64,000 nucleotides of DNA from Jannaschia sp. Os4 (GTDB taxonomy: Bacteria; Pseudomonadota; Alphaproteobacteria; Rhodobacterales; Rhodobacteraceae). The DNA is taken from contig NZ_JAFCAR010000004.1 of assembly GCF_016820245.1 (NCBI RefSeq), positions 558,001 through 622,000 on the forward strand. Direction: 5' to 3'. The notes beneath the pieces are model-generated. The model had not been told where the DNA came from, did no database searches, and saw only the letters and a list, made by a program, of their open reading frames with translations. This document shows positions 15,547 to 17,975 of the stretch, piece by piece (position 1 is the first letter of the stretch; every line of letters starts with the position of its first letter). The translations under genes were made by a program, and so were the position numbers.

Positions 15547-15753
15547 GGCGCGATGCGTCCAACGCGCATCACCCGCCCCGGTTTCGCCACGCGCCATGCC
15601 GATGCTGCATAGCGGCATTGAGGTCTTCGCGAGTTGTGCAGTCGCGGCATCGGGCGCATCTCCTGACCAAGCCGAGACGGACGGTTCATCCGCCGCCCCG
15701 GGCCCACCCGGCGGGACGAGCCCGCCAGCTCATTGACCTTCAGGAGGCACCTC

Positions 15754-15975: not shown

Positions 15976-15989
15976 GCCAGACACCGCAT

Positions 15990-16064
15990 CGGTCGCCTTC
16001 CTCCCTTGGCGACCGGCGCGGCCCCGGCCGGATCGGTCCCCTCCTCCCTTGGGGCCACCGGCCA
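15990..16064 (+). ncRNA. CcsR-like unit A (two hairpins)
   Basis: Hairpin 1: CGGTCGCC (15990-15997) with GGCGACCG (16008-16015) around TTCCTCCCTT. Hairpin 2: CGGTCCCC (16034-16041) with GGGG and ACCG (16051-16060, two-base bulge) around TCCTCCCTT. It begins 14 bases after the DUF1127 stop. Confidence 0.7.
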
Positions 16065-16070
16065 TCGCCC

Positions 16071-16172
16071 GACGCTCCATCCTCCCTCGGAGCCGACGGC
16101 ATCCCGGCCCCCGTCCGCGGCGGGCCGGTCGAGACACCGGAGCGGCGCCCCTCCTCCCTTGGGCGCGGCTCC
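16071..16172 (+). ncRNA. CcsR-like unit B (two hairpins)
   Basis: Hairpin 3: GCTCC (16074-16078) with GGAGC (16089-16093) around ATCCTCCCTC. Hairpin 4: GGAG plus GCGCCC (16139-16150) with GGGCGC plus CTCC (16161-16172) around CTCCTCCCTT. The two are separated by a longer, GC-rich spacer. Confidence 0.65.
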
Positions 16173-16187
16173 GGGCGCGGTCGGCGC

Positions 16188-16247
16188 GGTCCTTCCTCCC
16201 TTGGACCCCCGGCCCGGCCCCGCGCCTCCCTCCTCCCTTGGAGGCGC
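16188..16247 (+). ncRNA. CcsR-like unit C (two hairpins)
   Basis: Hairpin 5: GGTCC (16188-16192) with GGACC (16203-16207) around TTCCTCCCTT. Hairpin 6: a perfect 8-bp stem GCGCCTCC (16222-16229) with GGAGGCGC (16240-16247) around CTCCTCCCTT. Confidence 0.7.
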
Positions 16248-16255
16248 AGGGCACT

Positions 16256-16336
16256 CCGGTCCCCCTCCCGGGACCGGCTGAATGGGCCGGCGCGGCCCCT
16301 CCTCCCTGGGGTCGCGCCGGTTCGTTTCGATTTTTT
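16256..16336 (+). ncRNA. CcsR-like unit D, ending in a U-tract terminator
   Basis: Hairpin 7: CCGGTCCC (16256-16263) with GGGACCGG (16270-16277) around CCTCCC. Hairpin 8: a 13-bp stem (16287-16299 with 16308-16320, one G-U pair) around TCCTCCCT, followed by TTCGTTTCGATTTTTT. It therefore also works as an intrinsic terminator. Confidence 0.75.
16287..16336 (+). terminator. Intrinsic terminator formed by hairpin 8
   Basis: A strong GC stem with a CCUCC loop is followed by a run of six T (16331-16336). It is the only hairpin of the array with a clear U-tract, so most transcripts from the DUF1127 promoter may end here. Confidence 0.7.
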
Positions 16337-16393
16337 CGAAACCGCATTGGAACCCGGTCCGACCGGGAGGGTTCGCAATCGACAGACAGGCGA

Positions 16394-16504
16394 CCGGACC
16401 CTCCTCCCTCCCTCAGGTCCGGTTCCCGTACGGCGCGCCCCACCCTCCCCTCGGGCGCGCGCCACCCCAAGCGGCGGCGTCCCCCTCCCTGGGCGCCGCC
16501 GCTT
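16394..16504 (+). ncRNA. CcsR-like unit E (three hairpins, past the terminator)
   Basis: Hairpin 9: CCGGACC (16394-16400) with GGTCCGG (16416-16422) around CTCCTCCCTCCCTCA. Hairpin 10: GGCGCGCCC (16432-16440) with GGGCGCGCGCC (16453-16463). Hairpin 11: AAGCGGCGGCG (16469-16479) with CGCCGCCGCTT (16494-16504) around a CCCTCCCT loop. No U-tract follows. A further hairpin without a pyrimidine loop lies between units D and E at about 16346-16379. Confidence 0.6.
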
Positions 16505-16652: not shown

Positions 16653-17975
16653 ATGATCCTTCCGTCCCTGACCTCGCCGCGCGTGGTGATCGCCGCGCTC
16701 TGCCTCCTGCTCGCCGCGGGCGCGACGGTGGTGGCGATGACGGTCTCCGCCGAGCGCGCGGCCCGCGCGCAGGTCACGCGCACCGCCGCGATCCTCGAGA
16801 TCCTCCGTGGCACGCTGCGCGACGGGCTCGACGCCGAGACGGGGCAGCGCGGCTACCTCCTCACGGACGACGTGGCCTATCTCGAACCCTACGAGCGCGC
16901 GGCCGGGGCATGGCTCGGTCGGATCGACGTCCTGGAGGCGCGGCTCGGGGAGGAGGGGATCGAGGACGCGCAGATCGCGATCCTGCAGCGCATGCGCCGG
17001 ATCGCGGAGGCGAAGCTCGCCGAGCTCGCCGCGACGATCGATCTTGCGACCTCCGGCGCCCGCGACGACGCCCTCGCCTTGGTGCGGACGGACGAGGGCC
17101 GGACGCTGATGACGGAGTTCCGCGCCGAGGTCGAAGCCTTGGAGCGGATGGAGCAGGATCTGCTGGCGCGCGAGGTCGCGGCGGCGGAGCGGATCGAGCG
17201 TCGGACGGTGCCGGCGCTGGCGCTGCTGGGCCTCGTGGCGCTCCTGCTCTCGATGGTGGGCCTGCGAGTCGAACGCCGGACCGCCGCCGCCGAGGCCCGC
17301 GCCCGCGAGGCCGACGACCTGCGCGCCGCGCGGGCGCGGTCGGACCTCCTCGCGCGGGAGATGGACCACCGCGTCAAGAACCTCCTCGCGGTCGTCCTCT
17401 CCATCGTCTCCCTGTCGGCCAAGGGCGCCGCGCCCGAGGCGCGTCCCGCGCTCAAGCGCCTCCGGGAGCGCCTCCACGGCCTGTCCCTCGCCCATTCCGC
17501 CGCGCAGGAGCAGGACGCACGCGGCGGCGTCGCGCTCGGGACGCTCGTGGACCGGACGCTCGCGCCCTATCGCGACGGCACGGACGGGCGCGGCGGCCCG
17601 CGCATCGCCACCCACGGGCCGCCCATCCACCTGCCGGTGTCGATGGTCACCCCGCTCGGCCTCGTGCTGCACGAACTGGCCACGAACGCGGTGAAGCACG
17701 GCGCCCTGTCGCATGCCGACGGTCGCTTGGACCTCGGGTGGGAGACGGTGGAGGACGGATCCGCGGTCCGCCTGACGTGGCGCGAGAGCGGGAGCCCCGG
17801 CGCGCGGCCGCCGGTCCGGACCGGCTTCGGCAGCGTCCTTCTGACGCAATCCGCGCGCCAGCTGCGCGCGAAGCTCGACCAAGCGTGGCCCGGGGACGGC
17901 CTCCGGGTGGACCTGCGCGTTCCGCTGCCGCCGCGCGACGCGGCGGGTCCGGCGGCCCGAACGGGCCGCGCGTAG
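16653..17975 (+). CDS. CHASE3-type sensor histidine kinase (HWE/HisKA_2 class)
   Basis: Inner-membrane sensor kinase, 440 residues. Membrane helix 1 (about residues 11-31), a periplasmic CHASE3-like segment with the family hallmark ETGQRGYLLT, helix 2 (about 186-206), a short coiled coil, then the HisKA_2 dimerisation box EMDHRVKNLL with phospho-acceptor H239. The ATPase domain has LHELATNAVKHGALS as N-box. HWE/HisKA_2 kinases often feed stress-response regulators. No response regulator is adjacent. It starts about 150 bases after the sRNA array on the same strand and ends 12 bases from convergent uvrD. A clear ribosome-binding site is not visible, so the start is moderately certain. Confidence 0.85.
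   Translation: MILPSLTSPRVVIAALCLLLAAGATVVAMTVSAERAARAQVTRTAAILEILRGTLRDGLDAETGQRGYLLTDDVAYLEPYERAAGAWLGRIDVLEARLGEEGIEDAQIAILQRMRRIAEAKLAELAATIDLATSGARDDALALVRTDEGRTLMTEFRAEVEALERMEQDLLAREVAAAERIERRTVPALALLGLVALLLSMVGLRVERRTAAAEARAREADDLRAARARSDLLAREMDHRVKNLLAVVLSIVSLSAKGAAPEARPALKRLRERLHGLSLAHSAAQEQDARGGVALGTLVDRTLAPYRDGTDGRGGPRIATHGPPIHLPVSMVTPLGLVLHELATNAVKHGALSHADGRLDLGWETVEDGSAVRLTWRESGSPGARPPVRTGFGSVLLTQSARQLRAKLDQAWPGDGLRVDLRVPLPPRDAAGPAARTGRA

Follow-up and report, generated by a model that had tools for sequence, protein, structure and literature searches.

A close counterpart of the locus analysed here is described in R. sphaeroides, where ccaF1 and the RNAs CcsR1-4 are reported to be co-transcribed, to be processed by RNase E, and to have an RpoHI/RpoHII promoter; the short DUF1127 proteins of cuckoo loci are there labelled CIN1 (PMC10253847). 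The cuckoo RNA family/CIN1 itself (Reinkensmeier and Giegerich 2015) is summarized in PMC4504443 as having two to four hairpins whose loop is conserved and whose stems are free, and ar14/NfeR1 of Sinorhizobium as having several stem-loops that share one anti-Shine-Dalgarno (aSD) motif on variable stems (PMC10746234, PMC3927594). In the SisA-D/CrfA system of Caulobacter, a UUUCCUCCCU core is reported to pair with a purine-rich site (PMC12559287).

How does the Jannaschia locus compare? It lies in a stretch of 64,000 nucleotides from Jannaschia sp. Os4 (the window), in which 11 hairpins with CCUCC-type loops occupy positions 15984-16504 of the + strand behind a DUF1127 gene (Table 1). The order is that described for ccaF1-CcsR1-4 (PMC10253847): a DUF1127 gene, directly upstream and on the same strand as expected of a CIN1 locus, then, on the same strand, putative RNAs with CCUCCUCCC-like loops, and upstream a candidate promoter that is RpoH-like by comparison. 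The conserved loop on free stems is that of the cuckoo family, the single aSD motif repeated on variable stems that of ar14/NfeR1, and a core suited to purine-rich sites that of SisA-D/CrfA. Compared by description, R. sphaeroides has four CcsR RNAs, whereas the window has 11 hairpins in a 3 + 5 + 3 plan with looser loops (PMC10253847); Sinorhizobium ar14/NfeR1 is described with three hairpins, in passages that name no DUF1127 gene, in contrast to a long array behind DUF1127; and in SisA-D, unlike the window array, each RNA is described with a single core, and the sponge is a distinct RNA (PMC12559287).

Table 1. Features of the DUF1127 locus and its hairpin array (window positions).
Feature	Position	Strand	Remark
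Distal TGC..GCA palindrome TGCTGCATAGCGGCA, PhaR-type box	15603..15617	+	exact ATGCYGCNNNGCAGCAT on - strand
Candidate promoter TTGTGC-N16-GCATCT	15634..15661	+	RpoH-like by comparison only
Proximal TTGTGC..GCGGCA element, 4-base spacer	15634..15649	+	between the candidate promoter hexamers
Shine-Dalgarno AGGAGG of DUF1127 gene	15742..15747	+	complementary to loops; not conserved as such in genus
DUF1127 (CcaF1-like) protein gene, 73 aa	15754..15975	+	PF06568, E 9e-16
Hairpin 1	15984..16021	+	group A
Hairpin 2	16035..16056	+	group A; exact nonamer
Hairpin 3	16074..16093	+	group A; 5 bp, weak
Hairpin 4	16137..16174	+	group B; exact nonamer; GAGACACC just before
Hairpin 5	16188..16207	+	group B; 5 bp, weak
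Hairpin 6	16217..16252	+	group B; exact nonamer
Hairpin 7	16256..16277	+	group B; short loop CCTCCC
Hairpin 8	16280..16327	+	group B; exact nonamer; last ahead of spacer
T6 tract	16331-16336	+	possible internal terminator or small-hairpin loop
Spacer hairpin without cuckoo loop	16350..16374	+	GGAAC..GTTC frame in about half of relatives, by eye
Hairpin 9	16389..16427	+	group C; exact nonamer
Hairpin 10	16433..16460	+	group C
Hairpin 11	16469..16504	+	group C; homologous to relatives' terminal hairpin; no T4 run behind

The first-pass annotation of this DNA had counted about eleven hairpins after the DUF1127 gene and five copies of the nonamer CCTCCTCCC, and both counts stand: the 535 bases 3' of the gene yield 11 called hairpins (mean 1.26, maximum 5 in 300 dinucleotide shuffles), and the nonamer is exact in five of them (cores at 16040, 16150, 16229, 16298, and 16402), leaving 6 of the 11 loops without it. 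The opposite strand yields one called hairpin. When the motifs are held and the remainder is shuffled, a mean of 5.97 hairpins is called and 11 are reached in 2 of 300 shuffles; the summed stem score of the array, 290, exceeds all of these (mean 96, maximum 204.5). Folding the region, which the annotation had suggested as a check, gives a z-score of -8.65. The caller is lenient, and single weak hairpins are less certain than the array as a whole, the least certain being hairpins 3 and 5, with five base pairs each.

Could such a region be GC-rich repeats without RNA function, such as coding or terminator debris? It is very GC-rich and crossed by long open frames, but terminal-hairpin covariation and loop-core conservation make this explanation extremely improbable. 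In an alignment of the terminal hairpin from 19 of the 20 genus loci (L013 was dropped, its last called unit not being homologous), 97.7% of positions are paired over 14 pairs, 11 of which have changed on both sides while three are invariant; none of 500 shuffles reaches any of five covariation measures. Across 158 hairpins, arms of the same hairpin pair at 5.62 of 6 positions versus 3.26 for arms swapped within the same array, a figure biased in favour because the caller picks arms for pairing. Stems that vary and still pair are therefore seen by covariation in the terminal hairpin, and in the hairpins at large by this biased swap. The strong covariation of the terminal stem argues for a cuckoo/CcsR (CIN1-type) array; the kind of RNA named at first pass is supported, as are the DUF1127 link and, for the terminal hairpin, a varying stem around a conserved loop core.

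The loops are less uniform than those in the rest of the family sample. Across 156 other family loci, 986 of 1149 hairpins carry the exact nonamer; the proportion falls to 52 of 147 in the remaining 19 genus loci and to 5 of 11 in the window. For TCCTCCC the corresponding figures are 1111 of 1149, 128 of 147, and 8 of 11. Since nonamer counts are low while TCCTCCC counts are kept, Jannaschia loops are degenerate, with a relaxed 5' part and a retained CCTCCC.

Covariance models, which the first pass had recommended for identification, did not recognize the array: Rfam CcsR1 (RF02791) scores 20.8 and 16.4 bits (gathering threshold 65.3) and ar14 (RF02344) 24.1 and 24.0 bits (gathering threshold 58.8). 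Comparable scores come from families of other bacteria (Scr3202, 23.8 bits; 6C, 23.3 bits), so an Rfam search by itself does not identify the array. A covariance model is reported to be inadequate for the cuckoo-type RNA SmelA075, as its stems diverge (PMC3927594). The window locus is a real cuckoo array, ordinary in kind; its unusual traits are the 3 + 5 + 3 plan and the degenerate loops.

That plan is read from the core-to-core steps in the window, which measure 41, 40, 70, 44, 35, 35, 34, 104, 42, and 40 bases; the array does not resolve into CcsR pairs plus one. An array stands behind the best DUF1127 match in all 20 Jannaschia genomes, the window genome included, in keeping with the annotated DUF1127 link, and the loci carry 6 (one locus), 7 (six), 8 (ten), 9 (one), 10 (one), or 11 hairpins (one, the window). 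The ten 8-hairpin loci have five hairpins, then the longest step (83-114 bases core to core), then three hairpins; five hairpins precede the longest step in 13 of the other 19 genus loci, and L030 has no long step. By eye, the first three hairpins of the window array (group A) look like an added block, because GAGACACC precedes hairpin 4 here but hairpin 1 in L018. In genus locus L013, the first block likewise seems repeated.

Does this make the array enlarged, as the first pass had it? Within Jannaschia it does (11 hairpins, where 8 is the most frequent number among the 20 loci); in the family sample it does not. The DUF1127 profile matches 241 of 295 family genomes, and 217 loci were examined: 28 from a search for relatives, 29 new profile matches, 80 named loci, and 80 from the listed profile matches, the last being regions fetched for only part of those listed. 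The sample, weighted toward loci whose protein is closely related to the query, contains 201 distinct loci, 196 of them with a DUF1127 score of at least 60; at least three hairpins are found in 176 of the 196, and fewer in 20. Among the 176 arrays, our caller finds at least 11 hairpins in 21 and more than 11 in 16; the window array is long for Jannaschia and not rare in the family sample, and the idea that it is the longest known array was rejected on the 16 that exceed it. The largest called array, in L151, has 17 hairpins with extra cores included, and 14 nonamers are present there. Short and long steps alternate in many family arrays, and the hairpin count is even in 105 of 156, as expected of two-hairpin units. 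In L195 and L151, near-identical tandem two-hairpin units can be seen by eye, a sign of recent tandem expansion or homogenization. Most family loci examined have an aSD array, and the counts given here allow copy number to be tested as a trait.

The long step after hairpin 8 holds a T6 tract that the annotation read as a terminator. The tract is there, and a terminator scan accepts the 20-pair stem at 16280-16327 with its T6 tail (two overlapping matches, 0.4 expected), but the minimum-energy fold places five of its six U residues in the loop of a small hairpin; an internal terminator behind hairpin 8 is thus possible. If it is real, hairpins 9-11 would be read-through products. In 15 of the 20 genus loci a run of four or more T stands behind the last called hairpin, and the window is among the five without one; as no T4 run follows hairpin 11, hairpins 9-11 may be made only weakly or end badly. 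The same spacer contains GGGAGGG (16365-16371), which is complementary to the loops and might pair with them and switch them off, a built-in sponge with a reported precedent in CrfA acting on SisA-D of Caulobacter (PMC12559287). In the 19 other genus loci the aligned spacers show no GGGAGG (L013, whose spacer is long, has GGGAG and GGAGGG there), and the fold hides GGGAGGG partly in a stem; a sponge is very unlikely, and as a main idea it was rejected because the spacer GGGAGGG is not conserved.

What would a cuckoo array of this length do? A single transcript from a stress promoter probably covers both the DUF1127 gene and the array; an RNase would likely cut it in its wider gaps, those separating hairpin 3 from 4 and hairpin 8 from 9, to give multi-hairpin RNAs. 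Each loop would offer a CCUCCUCCC-type aSD sequence that pairs with purine-rich ribosome-binding sites, as expected from NfeR1, in which three redundant aSD loops are reported to silence ntrB (PMC10746234), and would lower translation; the Shine-Dalgarno-blocking role given to the loops at first pass stays plausible on this analogy. Extra hairpins would be added redundant binding sites, with a possible effect of dose. That the locus is a cuckoo (CcsR/ar14-type) array, proposed to act as a processed transcript with Shine-Dalgarno-blocking loops, we consider very probable. The many alike loops in a single presumed transcript would also suit a decoy that titrates bulk ribosome-binding sites, or else an RNA-binding protein (CcaF1, for example, is reported to take part in CcsR RNA maturation; PMC10253847). 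This is unlikely: the related NfeR1 is reported to silence specific mRNAs through its aSD loops (PMC10746234), and arrays of 3-6 hairpins, a poor fit to bulk titration, are also common.

If the loops block specific ribosome-binding sites, plausible targets would be transporter and carbon-metabolism genes; ABC-transporter candidates are predicted for NfeR1 (PMC10746234). The site GGGAGGAG-N(3,11)-ATG occurs at 19 places in the window genome versus 7 for the backwards pattern. Pfam, run on the genes of 15 of these sites (the other four frames have at most 44 aa), matched 11, of which 7 are transport-related and 5 solute-binding; for the control site AAAGGAGH (16 places, Pfam run on 11, all matched) these numbers are 1 and 0 (one-sided Fisher p 0.012 for transport and 0.018 for solute-binding, classes that were picked after seeing the names). 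Relatives G014 and G013 have 41 GGGAGGAG places, of which 30 were fetched, 24 scanned, and 20 matched; four matches whose start falls within a larger domain (L334, L336, L346, and L349) were set aside, and the remaining 16 include 4 transport and 3 solute-binding genes (the AAAGGAGH control covers the window genome). The enrichment was not repeated there at own-genome strength, and the transporter lean among the predicted GGGAGGAG genes is a hint.

And what would turn the array on? The pattern TTGTGC-N16-(C/G)CATNT lies upstream of 16 of the 20 genus loci, and the looser TTGTG...CATNT form upstream of 68 of 154 other family loci; TTGTGC alone is found at all 20 genus loci, at 148 of the 156 other family loci, and in 2 of 34 natural control regions. 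A promoter scan finds no sigma-70 consensus match in the candidate array promoter. The upstream pattern appears to fit, without proving it, the reported RpoHI/HII consensus (-35 TTG, -12 TAT; PMC10673084) and the RpoHI/RpoHII promoter reported for ccaF1-CcsR (PMC10253847).

Two TGC-GCA elements lie over this promoter (Table 1). All 20 genus loci and 84 of the 156 other family loci have TGCYGCN3GCRGCA upstream, as against none of the 34 control regions; the full proximal form, TTGTGCANNYGC(A/G)GCA, is found at 10 of 20, 130 of 156, and 0 of 34, respectively. The pattern CTGCN3GCRG, common upstream of the genus (16 of 20) and other family loci (133 of 156), is rare in shuffles (about 3 of 156) and in the control regions (1 of 34). 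The distal box matches the PhaR-box pattern NGCN3GC[GA]N3, and the window genome has a phaR gene (PF07879) as well as phaC (PF07167). Two further TGC-GCA elements lie in the interval from phaC to a 148-aa gene that precedes phaR. The product of this gene, phasin-like by position only, is present in all 15 same-genus genomes searched and has no Pfam or NCBIfam match (L249/L289); at least one box lies upstream of the 148-aa gene in 15 of the 15 genus loci found. Exact ATGCYGCNNNGCAGCAT occurs at seven places in the 3.54-Mb genome. Of these, two lie in the phaC-phaR region, one in the array promoter, and one ahead of a solo cuckoo locus (C4:673886); the other three, by eye, are just after a stop codon about 60 bases before a frame, inside a frame, and at a frame start. 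Both cuckoo loci found in this genome thus carry a TGC-GCA element.

These likenesses suggest that the array may be under PhaR, the PHB-storage regulator, an addition to the cuckoo reading and not a replacement for it: boxes over the promoter would hold the array off until PHB accumulates, the array and the phaC-phaR region would be induced jointly, and the loops would turn down nutrient uptake. In Paracoccus and Rhodobacter, PhaR is said to recognize TGC-rich repeats, and two boxes are reported around the -35 of the Bradyrhizobium phaP1 promoter (PMC10888616). Against PhaR control, (i) the proximal element has a spacer of four bases, not three; (ii) two boxes are called at the phaC-phaR region in only 2 of the 15 genus loci; and (iii) among the 20 DUF1127 loci at which at most two hairpins are called, 12 likewise have CTGCN3GCRG upstream, so the box may belong to the gene rather than to the array. 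Titles and opening abstract lines of the literature searched name no link of PhaR to DUF1127, CcsR, or sRNAs. We put the chances of PhaR control a little short of even. The wider proposal, that across the Rhodobacteraceae DUF1127-cuckoo arrays belong to the PhaR regulon, with PHB releasing PhaR from TGC-GCA operators and switching on arrays that damp uptake and carbon metabolism to a strength set, via block duplication, by array length, is tentative and somewhat more likely to fail than to hold. An array operator resembling that of PHB genes is the part most worth testing, and its likeness to phaC-phaR opens a possible connection of carbon storage to the control of translation to direct test; should the PhaR link fail, the locus is simply another cuckoo array.

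The solo locus, a second cuckoo locus beyond the window, has two hairpins (L008 1411-1530; G000:C4:673887-674006), and a search nearby found no DUF1127 match. Its promoter is, by eye, TTGACC/ATAATC-like and encloses an exact TGCTGCCGCGCAGCA palindrome.

The 5' leader of the DUF1127 gene was also considered. Cis-autoregulation through the gene's own AGGAGG was set aside, as corresponding sites differ among relatives. Within window 15660-15750, CUCCUGA could pair with UCAGGAG of the DUF1127 ribosome-binding site; the fold of this leader is not better than those of shuffles (z -1.09). Many genus leaders (L010-L030) show, by eye, a recurrent hairpin CCGGCAATGGGGCCGG between the promoter and the DUF1127 start. 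On the other side, the gene 3' of the array (window 16653-17975) encodes a CHASE3-HWE histidine kinase (PF05227, PF07536).
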